This document shows, in pieces, positions 7,821 to 39,962 of a DNA stretch of 64,000 bases (position 1 is the stretch's first letter; each line of letters starts with the position of its first letter). The position numbers were made by a program, and so were the translations under genes. This DNA is from an uncultured Sphingomonadales bacterium. GTDB lineage: Bacteria > Pseudomonadota > Alphaproteobacteria > Sphingomonadales > Rhodothalassiaceae. Where the stretch lies: positions 186,001 through 250,000 of the forward strand of contig CANMND010000006.1 in assembly GCA_947499155.1 (NCBI GenBank). Direction: 5' to 3'. The notes beneath the pieces are model-generated. The model did not search any database, was not told where the DNA came from, and saw only the letters and a program-made list of their open reading frames with translations.

Positions 7821-8213
7821 ATGATCAATCAAAACGTCATGAAAAAGAAAATACTTGTGGTCGAAGACAATGATCTGAACATGAAGCTATTTTGCGATTT
7901 GCTGGAAGCTCATGATTATCAGACGATACAAACCCGAGACGGGATGGCTGCCTTGGAATTGGCACGAGAGCACAGGCCCGCATTAATTTTAATGGATATT
8001 CAGCTTCCAGAGGTTTCAGGCCTTGAGGTTACGAAATGGATCAAGGAAGACGAGGATTTGCGCTCTATCCCGGTTGTGGCCGTGACGGCCTTTGCCATGA
8101 AAGGGGATGAGGAGAAAATCCGGGAAGGTGGCTGCGAAGCTTATATCGCCAAACCGATCTCGGTCGGCCAGTTCCTTGAAACGGTCAAGTTTTATGTAGG
8201 TGGTGATACATGA
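7821..8213 (+). CDS. divK: Single-domain response regulator, DivK-like
   Basis: [26 protein letters not shown]...[23 protein letters not shown]...IAKPI; directly upstream of pleD as in Caulobacter. Confidence 0.9.
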
Positions 8214-9613
8214 CAGCACGCGTGCTTGTCGTTGACGATGTTCTGCCAAATGTGAAGCTGCTGGAAGCCAAACTTACCAGTGAGTACTTTGACGTGCTTT
8301 GTGCAACTTCAGGGCCAGAAGCTTTGGAAATTGTGCAGCGTGAACAACCCGATATCGTTCTGTTGGATGTCATGATGCCAGGAATGAACGGGTTTGAGGT
8401 ATGTCGTCACATTAAACAAGACGAGGCGACGGCCCATATCCCCGTTATTATGGTAACGGCCCTTGATCAGATGAGTGACAAGATCGCCGGTCTGGAAGCG
8501 GGCGCAGAAGATTTCCTGACCAAGCCGGTTGATGATATCGCCCTGTTTGCCCGGGTCAAATCACTTGTTCGGCTAAAAGTGATGATGGATGAACTCAAAA
8601 ATCGGGAAAATACCGGAGCATCCCTTGGCTGGGTGAAGGCAGGCGAAGAGGCTGAAACTTTTGAGCCTTCCAACACCTCAATTCTACTGGTGGATGACCA
8701 TGAGAAAGCCGCTGCGCGGGTAGGCCGCATGCTGACGGATATGGCAAGTGTATCGCATTCGATCGGGGGCGAGGGTGTAGCCGAACGCGCACGGGAGAAA
8801 AATTACGATCTTGTTATCGTGTCCTTGTCCATGCGTGAGACGGACGGCCTGCGTATATGCTCCAAGATGCGCTCCTATGAAGAAACGCGTCATGTCCCGA
8901 TTCTTGTTGTGGTTGAGGACAGTGAGCACGGGTCGCGTCAGTTGGTGCGGGCGCTTGATATGGGAGTGAATGACTATCTGGTGCCCCCTGTCGAGCGTCT
9001 GGAATTGATTGCCCGTGTGAGGACCCAAATCCGGCGTAAGCGTTATTCTGACAGGCTGTGGGAAAATTTTCATATTTCCATGCAGCTTGCTACCACTGAT
9101 GCTGTCACAGGGCTTTATAATCGCCATTATATGAACAGCCACCTAGAGACGTTGCTGCACTCAGCAAGGCGAAACGCCAAGCCCTTGTCTTTGGCTATGC
9201 TTGATATTGATCACTTTAAACCAGTGAACGATACCTATGGGCATGCCGCTGGTGATGAGATTTTACAAGAATTTGCAACACGAATTGCACGAAACGTACG
9301 CGGCGTGGATCTGGCAGCTCGTTATGGTGGGGAAGAATTCGTGGTGGTCATGCCCGATACATCCCGACATGAAGCCTTGGTAATTGCCGAACGCCTCCGG
9401 CACACAGTGTCTGATGTTCCATTTGTATTGTCGGACGGAACGGAGATCAATATTACCGTCAGCATTGGACTTGCGAGGCTGGACGACGAAGTGGAAGCCG
9501 CCAGTGATCTTTTGGAACAGGCCGACTCAGCGCTGTATCAGGCAAAGCATGAAGGCCGCAACAGGGTGGTTGTGAATGAAGAGGCTGGCGGGATGCAAGC
9601 GTCACATGCTTAA
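8210..9613 (+). CDS. pleD: PleD-type diguanylate cyclase (REC-REC-GGDEF)
   Basis: REC1 canonical ([25 protein letters not shown]); second receiver; GGDEF domain [14 protein letters not shown] with RGVD I-site; overlaps the divK stop. Confidence 0.94.
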
Positions 9614-9677: not shown

Positions 9678-9845
9678 TTATTTGATCTTGGCTTCCTTAA
9701 ATTCCACATGCTTGCGGACAACCGGATCATATTTACGGAGGACCATTTTCTCCGTTAATGTCCGGGGATTCTTTTTGGTTACGTAAAAATAACCGGTACC
9801 CGCACTGCTTACGAGCTTGATTTTAATGCCACTTGGTTTGGCCAT
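9678..9845 (-). CDS. rpmG: 50S ribosomal protein L33
   Basis: 55 aa: [55 protein letters not shown]. Absent from the ORF track because it is shorter than the apparent cutoff. Confidence 0.97.
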
Positions 9846-10053
9846 GGCGTGAACTCCAACGCGCTGTCTGTGCTATCGCCGAACGGGCCACGCCTGCCGG
9901 CAGAATTGAAGGGCCAACATAGAGCCATTAAGTGGATTGTCAAGTCCCTGACTGCAATCTGGGCCAGCTTCTTGACGGGTCATCTCATTAGGGAATTTTT
10001 TGTGACTTTCCTTATATAATCTTCCATACGTTGAAAAAGGAGTGACATTTAGT

Positions 10054-10821
10054 ATGACGGGCCAGTTACCCAGTGTGGAAGAAGCATTTCAAGAAGCTTT
10101 GGATTCTATAGATGACAGACTCTTGCAGATGAATGCGCTCCTTTCTGACGTAAGCCACGAGCGTCTGAATTCTGTAATGGCTGTTGCAGTTCTTCGTCAG
10201 CATGCGCATTCCGTCAAGGGGCTTGGGGCCAGCGTGGGTGCCACAATCATCAAGGTTCTTGCCCATCGTTTAGAAGATTATCTGGAAGCGGTGGAGGTCC
10301 TTGAAGGGCGCGCTTTTGGCGATTGTCAGGTCTTTCTTGACCGATTGAGTGAAGCCCTTGATGGTCGTCTTGATGCCTCTCCCCAGGATATCGCCGGGTT
10401 TTGTCGGCGTCTTCCCGCCAAAGGATCATTCAGTATCGATGATATCGAAATTAACGATATCGAGTTGATGCTGGTAATGACAGAAGGAACAGGGACACAC
10501 TTTGTCACCCGTGAATTGGCTGAATGCGGCTATCGAATTGTCAATGTCAGATCCACAGTGGACGCCCTTGCGCTGGCAGCCCAGATGCGTCCTGACATGG
10601 TTATAGTTTCCAATGTCATGCCGGAACTCTCAGGCGTGGATTTTATCTGTGCCCTGAAAGCGATGCCCGCGACAAAATCAATTCCTGTAGCCCTGTTGAC
10701 CAGCGCAGAGCGTGACAATCCAAGGCTGTCTGATCTGCCAACTGATGTGCCCATCCTGTCCAAGTCGGGACGATTTGCTGATGATGTGGCCTCTGTGTTT
10801 TCTCAAATTGGGCTTTTGTAA
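10054..10821 (+). CDS. Hpt-domain protein with C-terminal receiver-like (pseudo-receiver) domain
   Basis: Hpt motif AHSVKGLGASVG; C-terminal REC fold signature PDMVIVSNVMPELSGVDF...IPVALLTSAE...ILSKS. Start ATG 10054 preceded by AAAAAGGAG. Confidence 0.75.
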   Translation: MTGQLPSVEEAFQEALDSIDDRLLQMNALLSDVSHERLNSVMAVAVLRQHAHSVKGLGASVGATIIKVLAHRLEDYLEAVEVLEGRAFGDCQVFLDRLSEALDGRLDASPQDIAGFCRRLPAKGSFSIDDIEINDIELMLVMTEGTGTHFVTRELAECGYRIVNVRSTVDALALAAQMRPDMVIVSNVMPELSGVDFICALKAMPATKSIPVALLTSAERDNPRLSDLPTDVPILSKSGRFADDVASVFSQIGLL

Positions 10822-18666: not shown

Positions 18667-20787
18667 TCAAATTTGGCCCAATGTGCGAATCCGTGCTTTT
18701 GGATGGATTTCGCTTTGGGACAAAACCGATGTTGCAGGCCGTACCCGCTCAATGATCGAACGAACATATGGCCTTATACCGGGGCTTGTCAGCAAGATAG
18801 GCGATTCCCCCCGTTGGGCCATTTTGTCAAATGCATCCTTCAAGGCCGCCATAAACTCCTGGAGTGCACTGGGGGCCATGGCAAGCTGACGGTCTTCGCC
18901 TTGTCCAACAAGAGCTTCTGCATAGGCCTGCTCCCATTTTGGTGAGAGTGTCAAAAGTGGGATGAATCCAGTCGTGCCTGTATGGGCTGCTGAGAGTTGC
19001 CGTGCAAGGCGAGAGCGCACATGCTCGGTTATCATGACGATGTTGCGGGTACCGCCTGCTGTTTCTGCGATGCCTTCCAGAATGGTTGGCAGATCACGGA
19101 TGGATACCCGTTCGCTCAAAAGGCTTTGCAGCACTCTTTGGATGGTGGACAGGCTTACCTGGTCAGGAACAATATCCTGCACCAGTTTTTGTTGTTCTGC
19201 TGGCAGTTCATCCAAAAGCTTGCGGGTTTCAGCATAAGACAGAAGATCCGCCATATTGTCCTTGACGATTTCTGTCAGATGGGTGGTGACCACCGTTGCC
19301 GCATCCACAACCGTATGGCCACGGAATGAGGCCTCCTCGCGCATGGACTGGTCAATCCAGGTGGCAGGCAGGCCAAAGGCCGGTTCTGTGGTACGTTCGC
19401 CCGGCAGGCTGACCTGATCGCCGCCCGGATCCATGACCAGAAGAAAGCCCGGCTTCACCTCTGCGCGGGCGACCTCGGTTTCCTTTACCCTGATGGCATA
19501 GGCATTGGTTGGAAGCTGCATATTGTCCAGAATGCGCACCGACGGCATGACAAAGCCCATTTCGGTTGCCAACTGACGGCGCAACGCCTTGATCTGATCG
19601 GTCAGGCGGTAGCCGCTTTCCTCATTAATCAGTTGCAACAGGCCATAGCCCAGTTCCAGTCGAACCATGTCGATGGCAAGGGCCGCTGTAATTGGCTCTT
19701 CTTTGGGAGGCTCGGCATTTGCTGCATTTTCCTGGGTGATGAGCTTGTCTTCATGGGCAACACGGGACCGGCGATCAATGGTGAAGGTGATATAACCCAA
19801 TATGCCCCCCAGAATGGCAAAGGGCAGGAACGGCAGACCCGGCATCAGGCCAAGCAAAACCAGCAGGGCAGCAGTAATGCCCAGTGCCCTTGGATAGGCC
19901 GAAAGTTGCTCCATCAGGGCCTTGTCGGTAGAGCCTTCAGCCTTTGCCTTTGTAACAAGCATGCCAGCGGCAACAGACACGATCAGGGCAGGGATCTGGC
20001 TCACTAGACCATCCCCCACAGTCAGGACAGTGTAGCGACTGACGGCATCTGCAAATGACATGTCGTTGATCGCTATGCCCACAATCATACCGCCGATGAC
20101 ATTTATGAAGGTGATGAGAAGACCGGCAATGGCATCACCGCGAACGAATTTTGATGCACCATCCATGGAACCGAAAAAAGCGCTTTCGTCCTCCAGTTCC
20201 TTGCGTCTTGTCTTTGCCTGTGCCTCGTCAATGAGGCCGGAGGAAAGGTCCGCATCAATTGCCATCTGTTTGCCGGGCATGGCGTCCAGGGAAAAGCGGG
20301 CGGCCACTTCAGCGATACGGCCAGACCCTTTGGTGATGACGACAAAATTAACGATCACAAGGATGGCAAAAACGATGACGCCTATAACAACAGCGCCACC
20401 CATAAGAAACTCACCAAAGGCCTGAATGACGTGCCCTGCCGCATCAGTCCCCTTATGTCCTTCAGACAGTATCAGGCGCGTAGATGCCAGATTGAGCGCC
20501 AGTCGCAGCATCGTTGCAACCAACAGAATTGTCGGGAAAGAGGACAATTGCAGCGGCTTTTCAATGAAAAGGCTGGTCATGAGAACCATCACGGAAAATG
20601 TGATGGATGTGGCGAGTGCAAAATCCAGCAACCAGGATGGCATGGGCAGGATCAGGATCAAAATGATCGTCATGATACCCAGAGCCATGGCAACGTCAGT
20701 ACCACGGGCTGCGCCAAACAGGGATGTCAGGCTGGCGCTGGCACTGCCGGCATTCCGGGGTTGTTCTTTGGTCGTGGCGTCACTCAT
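18667..20787 (-). CDS. flhA: Flagellar biosynthesis protein FlhA
   Basis: Type III export FHIPEP-family sequence: RLALNLASTRLILSEGH, RFSLDAMPGKQMAIDADLSSGLIDE. Confidence 0.97.
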   Translation of the reverse strand: MSDATTKEQPRNAGSASASLTSLFGAARGTDVAMALGIMTIILILILPMPSWLLDFALATSITFSVMVLMTSLFIEKPLQLSSFPTILLVATMLRLALNLASTRLILSEGHKGTDAAGHVIQAFGEFLMGGAVVIGVIVFAILVIVNFVVITKGSGRIAEVAARFSLDAMPGKQMAIDADLSSGLIDEAQAKTRRKELEDESAFFGSMDGASKFVRGDAIAGLLITFINVIGGMIVGIAINDMSFADAVSRYTVLTVGDGLVSQIPALIVSVAAGMLVTKAKAEGSTDKALMEQLSAYPRALGITAALLVLLGLMPGLPFLPFAILGGILGYITFTIDRRSRVAHEDKLITQENAANAEPPKEEPITAALAIDMVRLELGYGLLQLINEESGYRLTDQIKALRRQLATEMGFVMPSVRILDNMQLPTNAYAIRVKETEVARAEVKPGFLLVMDPGGDQVSLPGERTTEPAFGLPATWIDQSMREEASFRGHTVVDAATVVTTHLTEIVKDNMADLLSYAETRKLLDELPAEQQKLVQDIVPDQVSLSTIQRVLQSLLSERVSIRDLPTILEGIAETAGGTRNIVMITEHVRSRLARQLSAAHTGTTGFIPLLTLSPKWEQAYAEALVGQGEDRQLAMAPSALQEFMAALKDAFDKMAQRGESPILLTSPGIRPYVRSIIERVRPATSVLSQSEIHPKARIRTLGQI

Positions 20788-20834
20788 TCATGAGATCCTG
20801 TATTGAAGGGATGCGAGCAAATCTGACTTGCTGG

Positions 20835-22196
20835 TCAGACAGTTGCCCGGGTTCCTTCACCCGGTGACGGAACTGGAACACCATCGGACTGGTATTGGTT
20901 CAGCTTGTTACGCAAAGTCCGGATCGAAATACCAAGGATGTTGGCTGCATGAGTTCTATTGCCAAGACAATGGCTTAGTGTGTCTATGATCAGGTCCCGC
21001 TCTACATCGGCGACAGTCCGTCCGACCAAAGGCGTTACACCGTCTGAACTATCGGATCCGGACGTTGCGTTCTCTGACTCGCCATGGCCATTGGGACGAC
21101 TGCCGTCTGGCAGCATGATCGCTTCAGGCCCAATGACACTTCCTGAAGCAAGCAACACGGCGCGGTGGATTGTATTTTCCAGTTCACGCACATTGCCTTG
21201 CCAATGATAGCTTTTGAGTGCTTTTTTTGCCGTATCAGATAACGGGCGGAATGTGATGGAATTCACTTCTGCATATTTGCGGGCAAAATGATCGGCCAGT
21301 GCATCAATGTCTTGCGGACGCTTGCGCAAGGGCGGAACTCGCAAATTCACTACATTCAGTCGGAACAACAGATCTTCGCGGAACCTGCCCGCTTTCACCT
21401 CATCTGCCAGATCGCGGTTTGATGTGGCGAGGATACGGATATCCACCTTGACCGGACGTGCGCCGCCAACGCGGTCGATTTCCCGTTCCTGAATGGCGCG
21501 CAACAGCTTGGCCTGAAGACGGATATCCATTTCAGATATTTCATCGAGCAGCAGGGTGCCACCATGGGCTTCTTCGAATTTTCCGATCCGTCTTGCTACG
21601 GCACCGGTAAAGGCGCCTTTCTCATGACCGAAAAGCTCAGATTCCAGCAGGTTTTCCGGGATAGCAGCACAGTTGACTGAAACGAATGCTTCTTTTTCCC
21701 GGCGTGACTTGCGGTGGATCAGGCGTGCAAAGACTTCCTTGCCAGTGCCGGATTCACCGGTGATCAGAATGCTGGCCTCCGATGGGGCTACCTGCTCGGC
21801 AAGCTGGACCACCTGTTTTGTCACGTCGTCACGGAAGATGAACGTATCATTGTCGTCTGCAACAGCTTCCAAAACAGCGGCAATCAGGTCAGCGTCCGGG
21901 GGCAGCGGAATATATTCTTTCGCGCCATCACGAATAGACTGGGCAGCCGTTGATGCGTCTGTGCCAATGCCACAGGCAACAACCGGGATGGAGAAATGCT
22001 CGAATTTGAGTTGTTCCACCATTGCCTTGATATCAAGGGCCACATCGATCATCAGCAGGTCGGCTCCACGATTGCGCAGCAATGACAAGGCGCTTTCAGC
22101 GTCTGTGGCATGGGTAACGCGTGCGCCTTTTTTAATCGCAATGGCAGACGCAGTTCCCAACTGCCCTTTCAGGTCTCCGACGATCAGCAAACGCAT
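20835..22196 (-). CDS. flbD: Sigma-54-dependent flagellar transcriptional regulator FlbD
   Basis: AAA+ [24 protein letters not shown], Fis-type HTH at C-terminus; N-terminal degenerate receiver; flagellar context. Confidence 0.92.
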
Positions 22197-22249
22197 AACT
22201 CTTCTCCTTGCCCATATCGATCTGTCAGTGACGTGTGGGCATATCTAAT

Positions 22250-23011
22250 CTACTTGAAGTACATAATCCTGTTGGTCGGCGGCAGGATTGTATTGATCAG
22301 CATTTCCAAATGTCTGGGATTTTCCTTGCGACTGATTGATGTAGCTCCCATGGCGTAAACCTGGTTAAGCAATGTTTCATCAGACGCGATCCGTTCAGCT
22401 TTCGCCGCCAGCGGAATAAAAACAAGATGAGCCATCATCGCGCCGTATAGCGTGGTCAAAAGTGCTACGGCCATCGCCGGTCCGATTGCGGACGGGTCAT
22501 CGAGTGAGCCTAGCATCTGAACAAGCCCGATCAATGTCCCGATGAGACCCATGGCGGGGGCGACATCACCAGCCCGGCGCAAAATATCTATGGAACGCAG
22601 ATAGCGATTGGCGACCGTATGAGATTCTCTTTGCAGAATGGCCTCTGCCTCTTCCGCGCTGGTGCCATCCAGAATCAATTGACAGGCGCTGCGCAGGAAA
22701 TGGTAATCACGCAATCCGGGTAACAATTTTTTCAAGACCAGTATGCCGTCCTTGCGGGTGCGTTCGGCCAGTTGCAGCACTGTAATGGCGGCAATTGATG
22801 GGTCCCGTTGTGATTCCGTAATCAGCCGCCAAAGCGTGCGGGGCATTTCGGACAGCTCCCGTGGTGAAAAGCTTATGGCTGTGACAGCCATGGTTCCGAA
22901 AATCACAATCAGAATACCCGCCCCATTGACGAAAGCCGCAGGCGTTCCGCCAATAAACATGGCGGCAATCAGCATGCCGAACGCGGATAAAAGGGCGATG
23001 AGGGCGGCCAT
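22250..23011 (-). CDS. motA: MotA/PomA-family flagellar stator (proton/sodium channel) protein
   Basis: MotA-like TM organisation; GGTPAAFVNGAGILIVIFGTMAVTAISF; GDVAPAMGLIGTLIGLVQML. Confidence 0.85.
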   Translation of the reverse strand: MAALIALLSAFGMLIAAMFIGGTPAAFVNGAGILIVIFGTMAVTAISFSPRELSEMPRTLWRLITESQRDPSIAAITVLQLAERTRKDGILVLKKLLPGLRDYHFLRSACQLILDGTSAEEAEAILQRESHTVANRYLRSIDILRRAGDVAPAMGLIGTLIGLVQMLGSLDDPSAIGPAMAVALLTTLYGAMMAHLVFIPLAAKAERIASDETLLNQVYAMGATSISRKENPRHLEMLINTILPPTNRIMYFK

Positions 23012-23016
23012 AAGAC

Positions 23017-23424
23017 TCAGGTCCTCTCGGTCTTGATGATTTCGGTCATGGTGACACCCAGATGATCTTCGACAAGAACGACTTCGCCGCGTGCGACAAG
23101 CCGGTTATTGACGTAAATATCGATGGCCTCTCCCACTTTGCGGTCCAGTTCAAGAACGGCGCCGGGGGCAAGCTTTAAAAGCTGGCTTACTTCGAGGCTG
23201 GAGCGACCAAGAATGGCCTGAACCTTCACCGGAACGTCAAATACAGGTTCCAGGTCATGGGCCGCACGCTGCTCATCCACATCATCATGGACATGGTTGT
23301 CGCCATTGGCTTGCTGAAGCTCGTCCAGGTCGATACCGCCCGGACTTGCGCTGTCCCCGGATGTTGACTGACCGGAAGACCGCGTACCTTCGGCTGGATC
23401 TTGATTATTGTCATCTGTCGCCAT
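23017..23424 (-). CDS. fliN: Flagellar motor switch protein FliN
   Basis: VFDVPVKVQAILGRSSLEVSQLLKLAPGAVLELDRKVGEAIDIYVNNRLVARGEVVLVEDHLGVTMTEII. Confidence 0.95.
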   Translation of the reverse strand: MATDDNNQDPAEGTRSSGQSTSGDSASPGGIDLDELQQANGDNHVHDDVDEQRAAHDLEPVFDVPVKVQAILGRSSLEVSQLLKLAPGAVLELDRKVGEAIDIYVNNRLVARGEVVLVEDHLGVTMTEIIKTERT

Positions 23425-23444
23425 GTTCTCATCTCCGTAATCGG

Positions 23445-24119
23445 TCAGGCTTTAGCCACAAATCGTTGAACAGCATCGCCAATCTGTTTTTCCAGTCGGT
23501 TCATATCCCGTTCCGCACCACCGTCTGGCCACTCTACCCGACAGTCATGAGGGCCAAGGTCCGGATCATTGATAAGGACGATCTGGCCTGCAAAGCCTCC
23601 AGCAAGCTTGAGGAGTTCCAGCCGGTCATTGATAGCGTCAAGCAGGCTTTCATGAACCCGGATCACCACACGCGGCTCGCGCCTGCACCCGTCGAGGCAT
23701 TCGGTGACAAGTGCTTCAATCTCTGTCAGCGGGTGGGCGTCCATCAATGCCGGAGCAAAACGCGTAGCAATGCTGTAAGCGATACGTGCAGTTTCTGCTT
23801 CAAGTGTTTCTACGAGTTGCTTTTTCTGCGCTCCCAGTTCGGTGCAGGCCGCCAGCACGGCTTCCAGGTTTTCGGCAATACGGGCTTCCAGTCCATTGAT
23901 GGCACTGGCATATCCTGTTTCATGGCCATTTTTGTAGCCTTCATCGCGCGCCTCATCCACCTTGCGGTGCAGAGCTTCAATCGCGTCCTCATGGGGGTCA
24001 CGTATATCGCCGCCAAAGCGTGTGTCGAATGTGTATTTAACTGGCGCCACAGTTACCTCATTTTTGGTCAGGGGGAAGGGCAGGGATGATGCGCCCTCAG
24101 TAGATAAGTTCATCTTCAC
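23445..24119 (-). CDS. fliH: Flagellar assembly protein FliH
   Basis: FliH/YscL-like coiled coil and C-terminal [27 protein letters not shown]; between fliG and fliN. Confidence 0.85.
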
Positions 24120-25113
24120 CCTTGTTGTCAGTCAGGATAATTTCGCCTTCTTCCGCGAGATCCTTAGCCTTGTTCACCATCGACATCTGGGCTTCATCCA
24201 CATCACGCAGACGTACTGGCCCCATCGCCTCCATGTCTTCGCGCAGGATTTTTGCAGCGCGCTCGGACATGTTGGAAAAGAACAGGTCGCGCAAGGTATC
24301 GGATGCCCCTTTCAGGGCGAGGGCGAGCTTGCCCTTGTCCACATTGCGTAACAGGGTCTGGACCCCGCCGGGATCGAGTTTTGCCAGATCTTCAAACGTG
24401 AACATCAAAGCACGGATGCGCTCGGCACTTTCGCGGTTTCGATCTTCAAGGGCGGAAAGGAAACGGGTTTCAGAGTTACGATCAAGGAAGTTGAAAATAT
24501 CAGCGATCGTTTCATGGCTGTCTCTGCGGCTCGTACGTGCCAGATTGTTCATGAACTCGATACGCAGGGTCTGTTCCACCTTGTCGATAATATCTTTTTG
24601 GACCGCCTCCATTCGCAGCATCCGCATGACAACTTCCATGGAGAAGTCTTCAGGAAGGACCGAGAGGACACGTGCAGCGTGTTCTGGCTTGATTTTGTTC
24701 AAAACGACCGCGACCGTTTGCGGATATTCATTCTTCAAATAGGACGCGAGAACCATCTCGTTCACATTGCCGAGTTTGTCCCACATGGTCCGTCCGGCCG
24801 GCCCACGTATTTCTTCCATGATGGTATTGACGCGTTCTGGCGGCAGGATTTTTGTCAACAGGCGCTCAGTCGAATCAAAGGAACCGTTAAGCGAGCTACC
24901 GCTGGAGACATCCTGGGAAAAACCTGTGAACAGGGTTTCGACAGTCTGTGCGCTTATTTGCCCGAGATTGGACATGGCGACAGACAGTTCGCGCACCTCT
25001 TCTTCGCTGAGCTGTTCCCAGATCGGCTTTCCGAACTCCTCACCAATAGCGAGCATAAAGGCTGCGGCTTTTTCCGGCCCACTCATTCGGGCGAGTTCTT
25101 TATTTTCTGACAT
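24097..25113 (-). CDS. fliG: Flagellar motor switch protein FliG
   Basis: [37 protein letters not shown]...[11 protein letters not shown]...[24 protein letters not shown]. Confidence 0.97.
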
Positions 25114-25139
25114 GGATCATCTCTGCCTTGTGTTCTTTA

Positions 25140-26825
25140 TCAATCTGCATAGAGCCAGCCACGGACGATGGCGGTTGCCTCTTCCGGATGAGTTTTCACG
25201 ATTTCACCGATCTTCTTGACGGACGATTCCTTCAGCCTGTTGTCAATGTTTGCGACATCAATAGATGAACCAGGAGAGGAGGCAGGGAGGGCCTTGCCAT
25301 ACTGTGTCTCGGGTCGTGCCAGTGCTGCGATAGCGGTCTGGTCTCCTTGAGATGCAGCATATTCAAGTTCAGCCATTGAGCTATGACCATCAGGTGAGCC
25401 TAGTACTGGTTGCGCCTGTTGGTTGCCGGCTTCGGGAATGGCAAGAACCAGTCGGTTCACCAGTGGCCGCACGACCAAAAGCAGGACCAGAAGGGTCACG
25501 ATCCCAAGAAGCAACATCTCAAGAAGATCATATAAGTCGCGCTTGCCGAGGCCGAGGAAGGAGAAACCCTGCTCCATGTCGACGCTAGGTCCTTCATCAA
25601 GAACGAAAGGCAAGTTGACCACTTCGATCATGTCGCCACGATTGGCGTCATAGCCGACAGCCGAGCGGACAAGGCTTGCCAACTGCTCGATCTGCTGGGG
25701 AGAGCGCTCCTGATAAACTCTGGTGCCGTCCTCACCGACGCTATATGTGCCATCGACAACGACAGCCACCGTCAGTCGTGATATGTCGCCGCTTTCCTTG
25801 GTCCGGGTGCGAACGGTGCGCGAAATTTCATAATTTATGGTTTCGTCAAGCTTGTCAGACCGGGATATGCGCGACCCCTCAGCAGGGGCATCATTTTCGG
25901 CTTGGGGCAGATTGTTGCCCACGGATACCGTGTCATTCATACGGTCCTGGTCACTATTGGCTTCTTCAACGGTGCGGGTCGAGCGGGCGACCTGGCTTTC
26001 CGGGTCATATGTTTCTTCATTGGTTGTGACCGAACTCATATCAAGATCGATCGCTACTTGTGCCCTGACACGACCAATACCAACGGTTTCTTCCAGAAGG
26101 CTTTCGATTCGACCGCGATATTGTTCTTCAAGTTTGCGCCGCTTTTCATCAAGGCTCCCGGTTAGCCCCGATGCAAGGGAGCCTTCACCACTGCGGGCAA
26201 GCAGGGTACCGTTCTGGTCAACGATGGAGATATTTCCGGGGCTAAGTCCTGCCACTGCGGCTGCAACCAGAGACTGGATAGCGCCGACCTGGCTTTGGCT
26301 GATCGTGCCGCGGCTGCGCAAGACAATGGATGCAGTAGGCTCGCGCTCTTCACGAGAGAATAAGGCCCGTTCCGGCAAGACGATATGCACACGAGCCGCT
26401 TCAATTGCATGGATTTCACGGATTGTTCGTGACAGTTCGCCCTCAATAGCCCGTACACGATTGATATTCTGGACAAAACTTGTTGTGCCAAGACCGTTGG
26501 AGCGATCAAATATTTCATATCCGATAACGTTCCCACTAAGGCCCTGACCAGCGAGCATGACGCGTAGTTCATTGACCCTGTCAGCAGGAGCGAGAATGGT
26601 GCGGCCACCTTCAGTCAGGCGATAGCTTATATTTTGAGCCTGCAGTTCTTCGACGATGCGACCGGATTCGGACATCTCGAGGTCGCTGAACAAAAGACCC
26701 ATCTGCGGTTCGGAAAGGCGCATGGATATGAACAGAAAAAAGCCAATGAGGCCGGCTGCAACGGCAGCCATGCCGATCAGCCGTGTTGTCCCGAATCCGG
26801 CCAATAACTCGAACAGACGATTCAC
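25140..26825 (-). CDS. fliF: Flagellar M-ring protein FliF (GTG start)
   Basis: MGLLFSDLEMSESGRIVEELQAQNISYRL, ARVHIVLPERALFSREEREPTASIVL. Confidence 0.96.
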   Translation of the reverse strand: MNRLFELLAGFGTTRLIGMAAVAAGLIGFFLFISMRLSEPQMGLLFSDLEMSESGRIVEELQAQNISYRLTEGGRTILAPADRVNELRVMLAGQGLSGNVIGYEIFDRSNGLGTTSFVQNINRVRAIEGELSRTIREIHAIEAARVHIVLPERALFSREEREPTASIVLRSRGTISQSQVGAIQSLVAAAVAGLSPGNISIVDQNGTLLARSGEGSLASGLTGSLDEKRRKLEEQYRGRIESLLEETVGIGRVRAQVAIDLDMSSVTTNEETYDPESQVARSTRTVEEANSDQDRMNDTVSVGNNLPQAENDAPAEGSRISRSDKLDETINYEISRTVRTRTKESGDISRLTVAVVVDGTYSVGEDGTRVYQERSPQQIEQLASLVRSAVGYDANRGDMIEVVNLPFVLDEGPSVDMEQGFSFLGLGKRDLYDLLEMLLLGIVTLLVLLLVVRPLVNRLVLAIPEAGNQQAQPVLGSPDGHSSMAELEYAASQGDQTAIAALARPETQYGKALPASSPGSSIDVANIDNRLKESSVKKIGEIVKTHPEEATAIVRGWLYAD

Positions 26826-26840
26826 AAGGCCCCCGCTTTT

Positions 26841-26878
26841 GTTATCCCGGAAAGCCGAAAGGGCTTTCCTCCAATAAC
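26841..26878 (-). promoter_or_regulatory. Hairpin in fliF leader
   Basis: GTTAT...GGAAAGCC-GAAAG-GGCTTTCC...ATAAC: 8-bp perfect inner stem plus 5-bp outer stem, just upstream of the fliF GTG. Confidence 0.7.
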
Positions 26879-26972
26879 GGGAATATTAGCGGGGTGACGG
26901 TAAAGAGCAGGTTAATGCTAGGCAGATTTTGCCCAGCTATGCTCGGCTGGTGAGATTGGTAATGTGCCTGAC

Positions 26973-27245
26973 TTAACCAGACAGGGTTTCCTCACGATAT
27001 TGCTGAACCCTTGTGACACGAAGTCCTGGCAGGCCGTTGCGCTCTATTGCTTTTTGCCAGGACAAAAACTCCTCTACAGAAAGCGAATAACGACGACAGG
27101 CATCCTCCAGGGTGATCAGGCCGCCACGTACGGCTGCCACCACTTCAGCTTTGCGGCGAATGACCCATCGCTTAGTATTGGCTGGGGGAAGATCAGCCAG
27201 GGTCAGAGGTTCTCCAGTCGGTCCGATGACATGCCTCACAATCAT
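26973..27245 (-). CDS. sciP: CtrA inhibitor SciP (DUF1153)
   Basis: MIVRHVIGPTGEPLTLADLPPANTKRWVIRRKAEVVAAVRGGLITLEDACRRYSLSVEEFLSWQ. Start at internal Met of the track ORF. Confidence 0.93.
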   Translation of the reverse strand: MIVRHVIGPTGEPLTLADLPPANTKRWVIRRKAEVVAAVRGGLITLEDACRRYSLSVEEFLSWQKAIERNGLPGLRVTRVQQYREETLSG

Positions 27246-27388
27246 ATTCCTTGTCTGCACCGTGCAACGTGCACGCCGTACAATGATGAGAGTGACTGTA
27301 CGGCCGACCATTTTAAAAAAGCGCTAAGGGTCAAAGTTAATGCGGCACCAATCTGTGTTAACGAACGGTAGGCATTGAAAACCGGTTT

Positions 27389-27422
27389 ATAAAAAATGGG
27401 CGCGGTGATTACCCGCGCCCAT
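27389..27422 (-). terminator. Rho-independent terminator downstream of flgE
   Basis: On the minus strand ATGGGCGCGG-loop-CCGCGCCCAT followed by TTTTTT, directly after the flgE stop at 27440. Confidence 0.92.
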
Positions 27423-27439
27423 CAATGGTTTGGAAAGGA

Positions 27440-28789
27440 TCACAGACGGACAAGCTCTTCCAGAATTTCATCTGCTGCAGATATAATGCGGGTGGATGCT
27501 GAAAATGACCGCTGCGTGACGATAAGATCGGCAAATTCCGTTGCCAGATCCACGGTTGATGATTCCAGTGTGGATGGCGCGATGGTCCCCGCACCACCAG
27601 TGCCGGGAAGTACCACAGCAAAACTGCCTGAACTGTCAGAGACGCCGTAAGCATTCCCCTGCAGGCGGGTCAGTCCATCGGGATTGGGGAATGTGGCGAC
27701 CGGGAGCTGGAACACGTTACGCGACAGGCCGTTGTCAAAAAGGGCCGTTACAACACCATCTGTCGAAACACTGGTGCCGATCACGTTGCCGAATGCTGCA
27801 CCATTCACCGAAGTGGAAACGAGTGTCGATACACCATTAAACTGGGCAAGGCCGTCCTTGTCACCGGCTGTTCCCAGATTGAATGTTATGGTTTCCGTTC
27901 CGGTACCATTCGCAAAGGTCAGGTCTGCCGTTGGCCTGATTGGCACGCCATTGGGAGGGTTGATTGCAGGGCCTGCTGGAAAAGCGGGTGCGAAAGAGGC
28001 AATTGAGCCATCGGGATTGAAGACGATATCACCTGACAGAACAAGACCCGGTGGTGTCGCTGCTGTATTGATAGCGGTATTGTCCTGCGCAGTGATTTCG
28101 AAGCGATAGAGATTGTTGCCGGTTTTGGCAGCGGAAATAGTCAGAGCTTGTGGTGTGCCCTGAGCATCAAAAATTGAAATGGTCTGCTGAAAGTCCGACG
28201 GCACAATACCGTTGCCCAGATCACCCGGATTGACCACACCTGTATTAGCCGGGACGCCATTATCCAGATTGATGCGCAGTCCGGCTCTTGTTGTTGCTTC
28301 TGCTGTTCCGGTGAGACCACTGACATTAATGGGCACCAGGGTTCCCAGATCGCCAATATTGGTTGGGATATTTCCCTGAACATCAATCGGAAAGCCCAGC
28401 AGGAAATTGTCTGCCGTATTTTTTAGAAAGCCTTCAGCATCAGGAGTGAAGTTTCCGGCCCGTGTAAACTGGATAGTGCCATCTGGTGAATTGGCCGTAG
28501 GTGCCTTTCGGACAATAAAGAAGCCCTGTCCGTCAACGCCCAAATCAGTTTGTGAACTGGTGGTGGAAAGCAGCCCTTGCTGACTGACCAGCGTTTGTGC
28601 CTTGGACGATACGCCGCCTGGGGAATAGCGTGCGACCGATTGTGTTTCAGTTACCAGCGTGGAAAACCTGTTACGGCTTTCCTTGTAGCCTACCGTATTC
28701 ACGTTGACGATATTATCGGAAATGATGCCGATGCCTTCGGTGAATGCCCTGAGGCCCGATACGCCGGATGCCAATGCTGCAAAAGCCAT
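27440..28789 (-). CDS. flgE: Flagellar hook protein FlgE
   Basis: ASGVSGLRAFTEGIGIISDNIVNVNTVGYKESRNRFSTLV...ATEFADLIVTQRSFSASTRIISAADEILEELVRL. Confidence 0.95.
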   Translation of the reverse strand: MAFAALASGVSGLRAFTEGIGIISDNIVNVNTVGYKESRNRFSTLVTETQSVARYSPGGVSSKAQTLVSQQGLLSTTSSQTDLGVDGQGFFIVRKAPTANSPDGTIQFTRAGNFTPDAEGFLKNTADNFLLGFPIDVQGNIPTNIGDLGTLVPINVSGLTGTAEATTRAGLRINLDNGVPANTGVVNPGDLGNGIVPSDFQQTISIFDAQGTPQALTISAAKTGNNLYRFEITAQDNTAINTAATPPGLVLSGDIVFNPDGSIASFAPAFPAGPAINPPNGVPIRPTADLTFANGTGTETITFNLGTAGDKDGLAQFNGVSTLVSTSVNGAAFGNVIGTSVSTDGVVTALFDNGLSRNVFQLPVATFPNPDGLTRLQGNAYGVSDSSGSFAVVLPGTGGAGTIAPSTLESSTVDLATEFADLIVTQRSFSASTRIISAADEILEELVRL

Positions 28790-28877
28790 GTCACACTCCT
28801 TGGTGTCTCTGGGGTGAGGATTTGTTCACCCACCTGGTAAAAGGTTCGCCGGCTGGTTGATACCGGCACATGTCATG

Positions 28878-29561
28878 TTATTGGGTTGGGCTACTGCCGC
28901 CTTCTCGCGCCTTACTGACCGCGAGGATCTGATCAAGGGAATAGGTTTTCCCCCCTACCGTGAGGATTGGCATCAGACCGGATGTCTCTACTTCCGTCAC
29001 TTCTGCGCGCAGGAATGTCGAGCTGTCCATTACCTTGCCATCATTGTCGAGCGCCCGAACGGTGAGGGAATATGTCCCTGCTGGTAAGGGGTTTCCTGAA
29101 ATATCTGTCCCGTCCCAGTCCATTTTGTGGATGCCGAATGTTGTTTTACCGTTTTCCTGATGAACCAGATCCCCATTCACATCACGGATTTCCAGATTGG
29201 TGGTATTTGCTGTGCCCGGCAATTCATATTCAAAGCTGACCGGTGACTGCCCATCAAAATTATTGGTATTGCCCTGAACCGTTGCAATGTTGCCAAGATA
29301 ACCGACAGCAGCGCTGTTTTGCTGGAAAGCAGTAAGGGCTGCCAGATTTTCAAGCTGCTTGTTGGCATTGATCTGCTGCTCAACACCTGCAAAAGCCACA
29401 AGCTGGCGGGTGAATTCATTACTGTCTGTTGGTTCAAGAGGATCCTGGTTTTTGAGCTGGGTTGTCAGCAAGGTCAGAAATGTATCGAAGTCTTGTGCCA
29501 GACCCTTTTGGGCCGACTGCGACTGACCGCTCAACTGGGATGTAATCTGTCCGATATCCAT
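28878..29561 (-). CDS. flgD: Flagellar hook capping/assembly protein FlgD
   Basis: DTFLTLLTTQLKNQDPLEPTDSNEFTRQLVAFAGVEQQINANKQLENL; MDWDGTDISGNPLPAGTYSLTV. Confidence 0.94.
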   Translation of the reverse strand: MDIGQITSQLSGQSQSAQKGLAQDFDTFLTLLTTQLKNQDPLEPTDSNEFTRQLVAFAGVEQQINANKQLENLAALTAFQQNSAAVGYLGNIATVQGNTNNFDGQSPVSFEYELPGTANTTNLEIRDVNGDLVHQENGKTTFGIHKMDWDGTDISGNPLPAGTYSLTVRALDNDGKVMDSSTFLRAEVTEVETSGLMPILTVGGKTYSLDQILAVSKAREGGSSPTQ

Positions 29562-29584
29562 TTTATGCCAGTCCTTCCTGTATC

Positions 29585-31315
29585 CTAAATAACGATGTTA
29601 AGGCCGTCGCCAGTTTGCCAGTGGAGCGCTGCAGTCTGTTGCAAGGCGATCTCGCCAGGCGCAGCGTCAGCGCTGTCATGTTGGGCATGGGGTTTCTCTT
29701 TTTGTGCTCCATGCCCGTCTGCCTGATCGGCAAAGGACATATTTTTTTGATCTTGGGCGTTTTGATTCAGTGAAAAGTTCAAGCTGTCGCTTTCTGTCTT
29801 GATCCCTGACTCACCCAGCATCCGTTGCAGTGCCCGTGCGTCTCGTTGCAGCAGGTCAAGCGTTTCCGGTGTATCCGCCATGATTAGCGCGCGCATGCCG
29901 CCATCTTTCAGCATATGCAGCTTGACCTCGATACGACCCAGATCCGGCGGATCCATACGAATGGTAAAGCGTGTCGTGCCATCGGTCGTTGCTTTTACAA
30001 TGCCCAGACCCACTTGCGTGGCAGGGCTTTGTGGAGATGTCCCGGCCCGGGCCGGATCCACAATGAGGGCTTGTGGTGTACCGCTTGACTGGATCTGTCC
30101 CGGCCCTGTTGTCAACGCACCTGAATCTGCAACCATTTCCATGCCTGATGACATTGGGGTGGACAAGGGCAGGGGTTTTAAAACTATGGGTGTTGGCGGT
30201 TGGACAAATAAAGAGTCAGAAGCAAGACTGCCGGTTGCTTTGCCTTGCGACATTATCTCAAGTTTTGAAGTCAGCAGGGCCGGTGCATAAGAAGGTGCGC
30301 CAGCGGTACTGAAGCTGCCGGGCGCTGCCTTTCCCTGGGCTGGGTTCTGATTGGTATTTACTGCACCCTTGTTGAAGCCGGAAAAAACACCAGCCGAAAG
30401 TACAGACGCAAAAGCCGTGACGGACGTGTCAGGCTTTAATGCAATGGCATTGGCACTGCGGACGGCTGAAGCTGCCTCAGCTTGAGGAGCAGACATTATG
30501 GCAAGTGGATCTGTGGCGAGTGTCTGTGCCTCTGTGATCTTTCCAGCATGGGGTAATGCATCTGGTTGGACTGCTGTTCCCTGTCTGGCTGGTTCCGGCG
30601 ATATTGGTATGAGGCCCTGGTTATTGCTCGGGACTGTCGCTATGGGCTGACGGTTGGAGGCCAGTGTTCCTGCTGAAGCCAGTTCGGATACTACTGCTTG
30701 TGAAAGCTGAGATTCAGGGGCGGTATGAGAGGGCTTGCCCCCGTTACCTGTTTGTAGTTCAGCAGGTGCGGTCAGTGTTGGAACTTGTAAAGGCTGGTTC
30801 AATGGTACCGGTGTTTTACCCGCCATCTCATTCAAGCCCTGTATGTCAGGTGCGCCCGTCATGGCGGCAGGTTCCGAAATGGGCAGGGGGGTGCTTGCGG
30901 ATAAAATGCCAGGCTCATTCAGTTTAATATGATCGCTGATTGCAGCGAAATCAGTGGGCAGGGCGAGCCGAGGGAGATCGGGCGCGATCAATGTTGGCGG
31001 AGTCATGATCGTGACACTGGACTGGCCTGATGGATTATTTACATCAGTATCCTCGCTGCCAGATGCGGTTCCTTCCGGGTTACCTGTGTGCTGAAGTGAC
31101 TGTTCTTCGACAATGACCGGGTGACCCCCGGTTGCATATGGTGCAGCCTCCTCAGTATTAATAAGGTGATGGGTGTCTTGGTTCTCGGTCAAAGGAGCAA
31201 GCATGCCCTGAAAGTTCTGCGCAGCCAGCGGATCCGTATTTTTCGGGCGTGACAGCATATTCATAAGAGAGCCGCCGGTGCTGTTTTGTGCCGTAATGAC
31301 TGTTTCAATGTTCAT
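29585..31315 (-). CDS. fliK: Flagellar hook-length control protein FliK
   Basis: Low-complexity N-terminus and C-terminal Flg_hook signature RMDPPDLGRIEVKLHMLKDGGMRALIMADTPETLDLLQRDARALQRMLGESGI. Confidence 0.88.
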   Translation of the reverse strand: MNIETVITAQNSTGGSLMNMLSRPKNTDPLAAQNFQGMLAPLTENQDTHHLINTEEAAPYATGGHPVIVEEQSLQHTGNPEGTASGSEDTDVNNPSGQSSVTIMTPPTLIAPDLPRLALPTDFAAISDHIKLNEPGILSASTPLPISEPAAMTGAPDIQGLNEMAGKTPVPLNQPLQVPTLTAPAELQTGNGGKPSHTAPESQLSQAVVSELASAGTLASNRQPIATVPSNNQGLIPISPEPARQGTAVQPDALPHAGKITEAQTLATDPLAIMSAPQAEAASAVRSANAIALKPDTSVTAFASVLSAGVFSGFNKGAVNTNQNPAQGKAAPGSFSTAGAPSYAPALLTSKLEIMSQGKATGSLASDSLFVQPPTPIVLKPLPLSTPMSSGMEMVADSGALTTGPGQIQSSGTPQALIVDPARAGTSPQSPATQVGLGIVKATTDGTTRFTIRMDPPDLGRIEVKLHMLKDGGMRALIMADTPETLDLLQRDARALQRMLGESGIKTESDSLNFSLNQNAQDQKNMSFADQADGHGAQKEKPHAQHDSADAAPGEIALQQTAALHWQTGDGLNIVI

Positions 31316-32835: not shown

Positions 32836-34515
32836 ATGAATCACGAGCAATCATCCGCTAAAGCTGCAAGCAGTGATGCATCGTTTACTCACTTGTCTAT
32901 TTCACCCGACGAACTCCATGTTGGGCAGTATGAGTATTTGCTACGCAAAGCGGCGACATTGGCTATCATCAGTATAGCCATGGCGCTTTCGCTCTCGTTT
33001 TTCCTGAGCGATCACGGACACCCGGTTGCTATAGGGGTTTGGCTTTGTTTGGTAATAGTGCCACCAGCCGTTGTCGGTGTCCGTATTCGGGTGCCAGAAT
33101 TTGAAGAAATTACGCCGGAACAAGCGGTAAAAGGCCTAAGAAGAACATATATTTATAGCTTATTTATGGGGATAATCTGGGGAAGCTCGGTTTTCGTCTT
33201 TAATCAGTTGTCCAGTGATATCGACTATATACTGCTTATATTGCTGGTGATTGCCCTTACGGTGGGTATTGTTGGAACGATGCCGCCTTTGCCTTTTAAA
33301 GGTATTGTTTTTACACTGGCAGCGTTTCCACCTGCATTTTGGAATTTGTTCCGGCATGGGTCATCGGAAACTATCGCGATTATTTCGCTGATGGTCGTAT
33401 TTCTTGTCGCATTGGGATATCTCTTATTTGCCAATTATACACATTTCAAGGAAGGCCTAAGGGTTAGGCAGGCACTCAAATCGGCTCATCTGTTATTGGA
33501 GAACGCAATTGACAGTATGGGAGAGGGCTTTGCAATCTATAAGGCTGACGGGTCTCTCATTCATGCAAATAACATGTACCGGGACATGTTTCCTGACAAG
33601 ACCATGATTCAGAAGAGGGCATCAGATCGCTCTTATACTGAGGAGCTTGAAGATGGGCGGATCATTAAAAGTACTTCACAAGTAACGCCGAGAGGCGACA
33701 TTGTAAGCGTTCATCAGGATATCACGCTTGCCTGCAAGCAGGAAGAAGCGTTGCTGTCTGCAAGGTGGGACGCAGAAAGTGCCAATAGGGCCAAGTCGCA
33801 GTTCCTTGCGGTTATGAGCCATGAATTGCGGACACCCTTAAACTCGATCATCGGTTTTGCAGATCTGATTGGCCGCAATTCAGATAATATAGTCCCGCAA
33901 ACTCTGAGCGAATATAGTGGTTATGTAAAGCAGAGCGGCCAGCATCTTTTGGGGGTCATTTCCCAGATCCTTGATTTGTCACGGATTGAGGCTGGGAGGT
34001 TTGAACTGAATGAGAGTCTTGTTAGCTTGCCAGCGCTTGTTTATAACGTGGTTAATCAATGCCAGCCCATGGCAGATGGCGACAATATAAAGATTGTGGC
34101 GCTTGCCGATTATGTTCCGGGTTTATGGGCGGATGAACATGCCCTTCGTCAGGTTTTGTTCAATCTGATATCCAATGCCATAAAGTTCAGTCATCGCAAT
34201 GGTACAATTACTGTGAAAACCATGTGCAGGAATGATCAGATTGGATTAGAGGTTCGTGATAACGGGATAGGTATCGCCGAAGACGACCTGGAGCTGATTT
34301 TCCAGCCTTTTCAGCAGGCTGACAATTCTCTTACACGACAGCATGAAGGGTCAGGTCTGGGCCTGCCTCTCGTGCGTAATCTTGTGGGGCTTCATGGTGG
34401 CGATATAGACATAAATTCGGAATTGGGAGCAGGAACAGTTATCAGCGTCTGGTTTCCCGCTGGACGAGTCCTGCACAATGACGAAGACGTCAAATTGCAT
34501 GAAAACAAGATTTAG
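32836..34515 (+). CDS. Membrane sensor histidine kinase (multi-TM, PAS-like, HisKA, HATPase_c)
   Basis: Several TM helices, NAIDSMGEGFAIYKADGSLIHANNMY (PAS-like), SQFLAVMSHELRTPLNSIIGF (H-box), DNGIGI and GSGLGLPLV boxes. Confidence 0.9.
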   Translation: MNHEQSSAKAASSDASFTHLSISPDELHVGQYEYLLRKAATLAIISIAMALSLSFFLSDHGHPVAIGVWLCLVIVPPAVVGVRIRVPEFEEITPEQAVKGLRRTYIYSLFMGIIWGSSVFVFNQLSSDIDYILLILLVIALTVGIVGTMPPLPFKGIVFTLAAFPPAFWNLFRHGSSETIAIISLMVVFLVALGYLLFANYTHFKEGLRVRQALKSAHLLLENAIDSMGEGFAIYKADGSLIHANNMYRDMFPDKTMIQKRASDRSYTEELEDGRIIKSTSQVTPRGDIVSVHQDITLACKQEEALLSARWDAESANRAKSQFLAVMSHELRTPLNSIIGFADLIGRNSDNIVPQTLSEYSGYVKQSGQHLLGVISQILDLSRIEAGRFELNESLVSLPALVYNVVNQCQPMADGDNIKIVALADYVPGLWADEHALRQVLFNLISNAIKFSHRNGTITVKTMCRNDQIGLEVRDNGIGIAEDDLELIFQPFQQADNSLTRQHEGSGLGLPLVRNLVGLHGGDIDINSELGAGTVISVWFPAGRVLHNDEDVKLHENKI

Positions 34516-34846: not shown

Positions 34847-36518
34847 ATGCAATTTCTCAATAATATTTCTGCCGATAAGTCACCATTGCTTCACGTACCG
34901 ATATCACCGGATAAGCTTCATGTCGGGCAATATGAACATTTGTTGCATAAGGTCACGACCCTCACCATTGTCAGTATTGTTCTTGCACTTTCTGTGGGGT
35001 TTTTCCTGAGAGATAATGGCCATCCGGTCGCGGTGGCAATGTGGGTATTTCTGGCAGTCGCGCTGCCAGCCATGGCCATATGGAATACGCGACGGTCGGA
35101 TCATGAAAACATACCGCCATTAAGAGCCCGAAAGGGGCTGAAAAAAAACTTACATATACAGTTTTGTCATGGGTCTCATTTGGGGTGCATCGGTATTTGT
35201 TTTCTCTGATATATCTGATGATACTTATTATGTACTTCTGGCTCTGGTTGTTACTGGAATGACCGCTGGGCTCTCTGCAACTGTGCCGGCAGTTCCATTT
35301 AAATCTGCAATTTTCGCTTTGACAGCAATTCCGCCAGCTTTTTGGAATCTGCTTGAACACGGGTCAGAACAAAGCATCGGTTTTGCCTGGATGATGACAG
35401 TATTCCTTATGGCGTTCTTTGGTCTGTCCATTACCAATTATTCGCGTTTCAAAAGTAGTTTGCAGATCAAGCTGGCGTTCAAGTCAGCCCATGCTTTGTT
35501 GGACGATGCTATCGACAATATGGGCGAGGGATTTGCTATCTATAGCGGCGATGGGTCGATTTTATACGCTAATCAGATGTATCAGGACCTGTTTTCGGAC
35601 GCGAACATCTCGAAGATATCTCCCACCGGTGATTCACGCATTGAAACGCTTGCCGATGGGCGCATCATCAAAAGCACAACTCACTTAACTTTACGAGGCC
35701 ATCTGGTCAGGGTCCTTCGCGACATCACGCGTGCTCGCAAGCAAGAGGAAGCCTTGTTGGCTGCACGTTTGGGCGCAGAAAGTGCCAATCGGGCAAAATC
35801 GCAATTCCTGACAGTCATGAGTCATGAGTTACGCACGCCCCTTAATGCCATCATTGGGTTTTCCGACCTTATAAGTCGAGAAGACGCAAATTTAAGCAAA
35901 GAGTCTGTGAATGAGTTTGGTGGCTATATAAAGCAGAGTGGCACTGAGCTTTTGAGGCTTATTTCCCAGATACTCGACATGTCACGCATAGAGGCGGGAC
36001 GGTTTGATTTGTCGGAGGAGGCGGTTAATCTGCCGATACTGGTCCACAAAGTGGTTAATGCGAGCATTCCTTTGGCAAATGACGCAAATGTGCAGATCGC
36101 CATTCAGGTGGACGAGGACACAGCCTTGTGGGCCGATGAAAACGCCCTTCGCCAGATTTTGTTTAATCTGATCACCAATGCCATCAAGTTCAGTCATGAA
36201 GGCGGTATCATTCACGTTAAAGTCACATGCGAGGATGGTAGGGTGGGCATTGAGGTCAGTGACGAAGGGATTGGTATGTCTCCAGATGAAATGGAATTGA
36301 TCTTCAATCCTTTTTACCAGTCTGACAACACTCTCACCCGAAAGCGTGAAGGGTCGGGACTTGGTCTGCCGCTAGTCCATAATCTGGTGACCCTTCACAG
36401 CGGTGATATCAGTGTCAAATCAGAGCATGATCGCGGCACATGCATCAGTGTCTCTTTCCCACCTGAGCGCCGGATAGAGAATGACAGTGATGCAAGGCTA
36501 CGCACGGTCAAGAAGTAA
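34847..36518 (+). pseudogene. Paralogous membrane sensor histidine kinase split by a frameshift at an A8 run (35141-35148); decayed gene, assembly error or slippage-expressed gene
   Basis: ORF 34796-35209 carries the N-terminus and ORF 35169-36518 the remainder; skipping one A gives ...GLKKTYIYSFVMGLIWGASVFVF, matching GLRRTYIYSLFMGIIWGSSVFVF of the upstream paralog. Confidence 0.85.
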
Positions 36519-39620: not shown

Positions 39621-39962
39621 ATGCCGCCGGAAAAATCCGTAAAACTTAACAAGTTGCAAAACAGGACATTGGCCTTGTTGCAAGAGCTTGCCCAGCAGTC
39701 TGACCTTGCGTCGACCAATGACGACACCGGGGATATCACCATATTTGGAATGCCGCACGCTCATGGTGACCATATGCATATCGGACGTTTTACCGTATCG
39801 AGCCGGTTTGCGAGCGGCTTGGGCAATGCCAATGTCTGGTCAGCCCTTGAACGCAGGGGATTGGCGCGGGCAGATTTCCCATCATCCATCACTATCACCG
39901 CCAAAGGCTTGGCGCATGAGACGGGCATTCGATCTGAAATGCTGGAGGAAGCCGATCACTGA
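39621..39962 (+). CDS. Hypothetical protein
   Basis: ATG at 39621 preceded by AGAGG; MPPEKSVKLNKLQNRTLALLQELAQQSDL...GMPHAHGDHMHIGRFTV. Confidence 0.65.
   Translation: MPPEKSVKLNKLQNRTLALLQELAQQSDLASTNDDTGDITIFGMPHAHGDHMHIGRFTVSSRFASGLGNANVWSALERRGLARADFPSSITITAKGLAHETGIRSEMLEEADH

Follow-up and report, generated by a model that had tools for sequence, protein, structure and literature searches.

A gene joining an Hpt domain to a receiver-like domain lies near divK and pleD

The window, the whole stretch of 64,000 nucleotides analysed here, carries close to divK and pleD a gene whose 255-amino-acid product joins an Hpt domain to a receiver-like domain with serine at the position of the phospho-acceptor aspartate. 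The locus raises the question of whether this receiver is decaying or serves the protein in another way, and whether the protein takes part in the DivK/PleD cell-cycle and c-di-GMP circuit. The closest named matches, at about 70% identity, are Iodidimonas muriae and strain Q-1, and the host is a close relative of Iodidimonas, in the Alphaproteobacteria. The reading frame opens with ATG at 10054 and its stop codon ends at 10821 (Table 1). A GTG at 10042 is a possible alternative start; an AAGGAG motif is well spaced only for the ATG. We found no CtrA box in the 353 bases upstream of the gene, a promoter scan returned no more than it did on shuffled sequences, and a tblastn search of plasmids gave no match.

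Table 1. Coordinates of the fused gene, its domains and key residues, its neighbours in the window and Hpt-only genes of other genomes
Feature	Coordinates	Strand	Basis
Hpt-pseudo-receiver gene, 255 aa	10054..10821	+	translation; Pfam; 113 distinct homologues; dN/dS of homologues
Hpt four-helix bundle, residues 8-104 (helices 8-34, 40-60, 64-78, 85-104)	10075..10365	+	PF01627; AlphaFold2; CheA P1 best fold match
His52 codon, predicted phosphorylatable His, HxxKG	10207..10209	+	sequence; kept in 82/113 homologues
Pseudo-receiver, residues 137-252	10462..10809	+	AlphaFold2; Foldseek receiver-domain matches, TM up to 0.83
Thr143-Glu144, receiver acidic-pair position	10480..10485	+	homologue alignment; profile alignment
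Ser186 codon (TCC), phospho-acceptor position	10609..10611	+	aligned with PleD Asp53; S/A/T/N/G in 112/113 homologues
Thr216, conserved Thr/Ser position, kept	10699..10701	+	alignments
Lys237, conserved Lys position, kept	10762..10764	+	alignments
divK, overlaps pleD start by 4 bases	7821..8213	+	upstream of pleD in syntenic loci
pleD (REC-pseudoREC-GGDEF)	8210..9613	+	NCBIfam NF007135, 638 bits; domain-2 acceptor Ser 30/30
rpmG (bL33), between pleD and the fused gene	9678..9845	-	same order in relatives
Stand-alone Hpt genes, His kept, next to rnr-topA	L048:3308-3688, L049:3658-4080, L164:3810-4268

The N-terminal half resembles the P1 domain of CheA

The AlphaFold2 model, built with an alignment of 46 sequences, consists of a helical bundle and a (βα)5 receiver fold (mean pLDDT 92, pTM 0.81). 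Pfam Hpt (PF01627) matches residues 12-102 with 33.6 bits against a gathering cut-off of 24.6, and His52 stands within AHSVKG on the second helix of the bundle, in agreement with the first-pass annotation, which had read a canonical Hpt histidine motif in this part of the protein. When the Hpt half was modelled alone, the top Foldseek matches were CheA P1 domains (1i5n, 3kyj, 1tqg) with TM-scores of 0.6-0.75 and E-values of only about 0.02; at that level the matches also include CheA3-P1 in complex with a CheY. The protein thus shares with CheA P1, of the same PF01627 family, the four-helix bundle, the HxxKG motif and the best fold matches, but its Hpt domain is not in a kinase; it is fused to a pseudo-receiver, and 31 of 113 homologues are without the histidine. 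ChpT (PF10090) likewise transfers phosphoryl groups, in the cell-cycle relay of alphaproteobacteria. We rejected it as an identity, since the 255-amino-acid protein gives no match to its profile; ChpT forms a separate Pfam family, and the host genome encodes its own ChpT elsewhere, on contig C3.

The C-terminal half has a receiver fold without the acceptor aspartate

Pfam Response_reg (PF00072) matches residues 151-221 with 32.2 bits (cut-off 30.2), and a Foldseek search against the PDB returned receivers with TM-scores up to 0.83 by target length. In the model the elements run as β1 137-141, α1 146-157, β2 161-165, α2 168-178, β3 182-186, α3 194-203, β4 212-215 and α5 241-252; α4 is all but missing, and many homologues lack three residues at this place. 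Ser186 is the final residue of β3, the proper place of the acceptor aspartate. Profile alignments set it opposite PleD Asp53 and the DivK aspartate, and a phmmer alignment opposite the receiver aspartate of 3gt7. Structure prediction and alignment thus both upheld the earlier reading of a receiver-like part with serine for aspartate, and the homologues show no conserved aspartate at this position. The further proposal that the acidic pair is replaced holds for the family, in which acids are not conserved at this place; in the protein itself one acid, Glu144, is left. The later threonine and lysine are kept as had been described (Thr216 and Lys237; among the 113 distinct homologues threonine in 83 and alanine in 26, lysine in 66 and arginine in 35). 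Among the features of a functional receiver, the acceptor aspartate and the acidic pair are both missing; the Thr/Ser and lysine positions are retained. Judged by these residues, the C-terminal half is a pseudo-receiver as defined in a recent review, namely an identifiable receiver without key catalytic residues (PMC12632262).

Bacterial aspartate-less receivers are described in the same review and include PleD domain 2; they share with the present domain the receiver fold without the acceptor aspartate, but here the pseudo-receiver is joined to an Hpt. PleD domain 2 has serine at the acceptor position too. Descent of the pseudo-receiver from that domain was nevertheless rejected, as its profile fits PleD domain 1 and DivK better. 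In the PleD proteins from these loci the domain 2 acceptor (residue 205 in the 8210-9613 product) is serine in 30 of 30 distinct proteins; two pseudo-receivers of the serine type are therefore encoded side by side. PhyR of alphaproteobacteria, which was among the fold-search matches, also has two domains, a helical N-terminal one and a C-terminal receiver, but its whole-chain superposition on our model is poor (TM 0.37, rmsd 18). The N-terminal domain of PhyR is sigma-like, not an Hpt.

The fused protein forms an old and conserved family

At the acceptor position the 113 distinct full-length homologues carry serine (74), alanine (26), threonine (7), asparagine (4), glycine (1) and aspartate (1), alanine being found in all Thalassospira copies. 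Overall, the acceptor aspartate is missing from 2.0% of receivers and the histidine from 0.9% of Hpt domains (PMC12632262). Since 112 of the 113 homologues are non-Asp, the missing aspartate is not a matter of chance, and against the two background rates the losses of the acceptor and of the histidine in this family are both far in excess. The absence of the aspartate across the family indicates an ancient loss. On a quick maximum-likelihood tree the acceptor residue changes 17 times, almost always between non-acidic residues.

Serine is the commonest residue at this position, and PleD domain 2 has it throughout the same loci, as would be expected if the receiver-like half were still regulated covalently, for instance by phosphorylation of Ser186 through other chemistry. 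We regard this as very improbable: 26 homologues, including those of Thalassospira, have alanine there, 12 more have threonine, asparagine or glycine, and no conserved acidic pair is present for Mg binding. As a general mechanism serine phosphorylation was rejected, alanine being too common at the acceptor.

The family was present in all seven genomes of the window's own family and in 26 of 27 sampled f5 (Kordiimonas-type) genomes, scattered in others of the order, and not found in the f6 genomes of the order sample. Across the class, about 45 of the 385 genomes sampled carry it, some with 2-4 copies, and where the Hpt half matched well the open reading frame was nearly always long enough for the fused protein. 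Further named hosts are Kiloniella, Thalassospira, Nisaea and Fodinicurvata. By this sequence record, the fusion of Hpt and pseudo-receiver is an old, conserved protein family and not a local oddity.

Several members depart from the common pattern. The sole aspartate at the acceptor belongs to the first copy of a tandem pair in L119 (2895-3794 and 3947-4750), which has isoleucine at the threonine position; the second copy has asparagine at the acceptor. Two Kordiimonas-type genomes carry second, diverged paralogues (L041 in G079, L043 in G049) with alanine at the acceptor and threonine at the lysine position. One member (L142, G440:C47:568-1305) has one in-frame TAG, and a partial second copy stands elsewhere in that genome.

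Among the 30 closest pairs of homologues dN/dS does not exceed about 0.16 in the Hpt or the receiver half, and most values are below 0.07, which points to strong purifying selection on both halves. Decay, with the receiver site lost by drift, would account for the missing aspartate and nothing further. The low dN/dS in both halves, a frame that stays open in every strong family match except one and the family-wide, hence ancient, absence of the aspartate make its probability negligible; for the family as a whole, chance or decay as the cause of the missing aspartate is refuted by the 112 non-Asp homologues and the low dN/dS.

The two halves have had separate fates

In 92% of pairs the receiver half shows the higher conservation of the two, and α3 is its best-conserved helix. 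On the tree the histidine changes at least 6 times, or 5 times counting only rows with flanking data; it was thus lost some 5-6 times with the pseudo-receiver retained, which indicates that the protein can be maintained without a need for phosphotransfer. In the His-less Kiloniella pairs dN/dS of the Hpt half is at most 0.03, so the Hpt fold appears to matter in these copies.

The opposite loss is seen as well. Three genomes of two families (two f7 genomes and G455) have Hpt-only genes of about 126-153 amino acids, with the histidine kept, which adjoin rnr-topA and occupy the place held elsewhere by the fused gene. Given the wider distribution of the fused form, these genes are more simply read as having lost the pseudo-receiver; an Hpt-only ancestor is possible as an alternative origin. 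Because the stand-alone genes there keep the histidine, phosphotransfer looks tied to the rnr-topA locus. At the ancestral locus 58 of 60 copies have kept it, compared with 18 of 39 well-flanked unlinked copies. In these raw counts (58:2 vs 18:21) histidine retention seems to depend strongly on linkage, but the dependence loses its support when relatedness is taken into account, with only 1-4 independent contrasts and no significance.

The better conservation of the receiver half and the repeated loss of the histidine from an Hpt half still under purifying selection suit a protein that works through its pseudo-receiver. This half would bind the DHp domain of a cell-cycle kinase (CckA, or one of PleC/DivJ type) or a partner receiver and inhibit or bias it, with the Hpt domain as a structural or dimerising remnant. 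There is a precedent in Osp of Rhodobacter sphaeroides, a receiver-like protein of the Alphaproteobacteria that is without the acidic pair and inhibits CckA directly by binding it (PMC9430884). By this analogy, an Osp-like role is the leading rival to a phosphotransfer role, and we hold it to be unlikely. The histidine is kept in nearly every copy at the divK-pleD/rnr-topA locus, Hpt-only genes with the histidine and without a pseudo-receiver persist beside rnr-topA, and Osp itself differs in being a single domain that retains the aspartate and has no Hpt.

The neighbourhood with divK and pleD is ancient

The order divK-pleD-rpmG-(DUF983)-fused gene-(rnr-topA) recurs, whole or in part, in Iodidimonadales, Kordiimonadales, Thalassospira, marine MAGs and others; in the Thalassospira stretch examined only the part from rpmG to topA is visible. 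Many homologues are unlinked, elsewhere in their genomes. In the window rpmG lies between pleD and the fused gene on the opposite strand, so the fused gene is outside the divK-pleD transcript. PleD was matched in 44 of 50 tested genomes carrying the fused family or the Hpt-only form, with no match in the other 6, some of which are incomplete; PleD is therefore a candidate and not an obligatory partner.

The same biochemistry might instead serve some unrelated partner, a hybrid kinase or a response regulator, the linkage to divK-pleD being nothing but an old neighbourhood of rpmG, rnr and topA. These housekeeping genes do recur at the locus alongside divK-pleD, and the unlinked copies, the genomes with no PleD match, the separate transcript and the missing CtrA box all agree with such a partner. 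We give this a low likelihood, since PleD is present in most of the sampled genomes and a signalling gene has been kept near divK-pleD across several orders.

The first-pass annotation had suggested an adaptor or allosteric element in the cell-cycle/c-di-GMP circuit. The proximity to divK-pleD on which it drew is real and ancient, and an adaptor or allosteric element is still the leading class of model; given the separate transcript, the unlinked copies and the genomes with no PleD match, membership in the circuit is plausible and based on gene order only.

Elsewhere in the window are two histidine kinases and one receiver-bearing hybrid kinase (32836-34515, 35169-36518 and 48289-50208), which are candidate partners for DivK, PleD or the 255-amino-acid protein. 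A flagellar cluster at 18667-31315 (FHIPEP/FlhA-type, FliF, FlgE-like, FlgD, FliK) shares the window with divK-pleD. The 607-amino-acid open reading frame at 39688-41511 is probably an ordinary kinase; it carries an AAA_33 kinase domain and, close to the C-terminus, a weaker match to Zeta_toxin.

Discussion

We tentatively favour, with rather less than even confidence, a dedicated phosphotransfer protein whose pseudo-receiver is a docking or allosteric module that is not itself phosphorylated. In this proposal His52 of the CheA-P1-like Hpt domain would exchange phosphoryl groups with receiver aspartates of other proteins, for which DivK, the first receiver of PleD and the receiver of a hybrid kinase are candidates. 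The pseudo-receiver, chemically unable to take part, would act as a fixed module bringing the Hpt domain to its partner, plausibly within the DivK/PleD circuit. We infer all three elements, namely phosphorylation of His52, docking by the pseudo-receiver and the partners. Both Pfam domains score above their gathering thresholds, the acceptor is almost uniformly non-Asp, both halves are under purifying selection, and the gene is present in nearly all sampled genomes of the two families named above, which argues for phosphotransfer. The repeated loss of the histidine and the better conserved receiver half argue against it, and the genomes with no PleD match and the housekeeping genes of the locus against a DivK/PleD partner.

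Pseudo-receivers and Hpt proteins are each already known; in the open-licence literature searched, at the level of titles and beginnings of abstracts, we did not find their fused family described. The protein may be an undescribed ancient component of the alphaproteobacterial DivK/PleD network that transfers phosphoryl groups under the guidance of its own non-phosphorylatable receiver mimic, and whose two functions were lost independently in different lineages (the histidine about 5-6 times, the pseudo-receiver in two families that have an Hpt-only gene in its place). We consider this possible, with the balance leaning against it. How pseudo-receivers are switched on and off has been called a mystery (PMC12632262, 2025), and the family offers natural comparisons, between fused proteins with and without the histidine and with the Hpt-only genes that stand at their locus. 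If the protein is tied to DivK and PleD, relatives of Iodidimonas, Kordiimonas and Thalassospira would have a further core regulator, one that Caulobacter-based models may miss.
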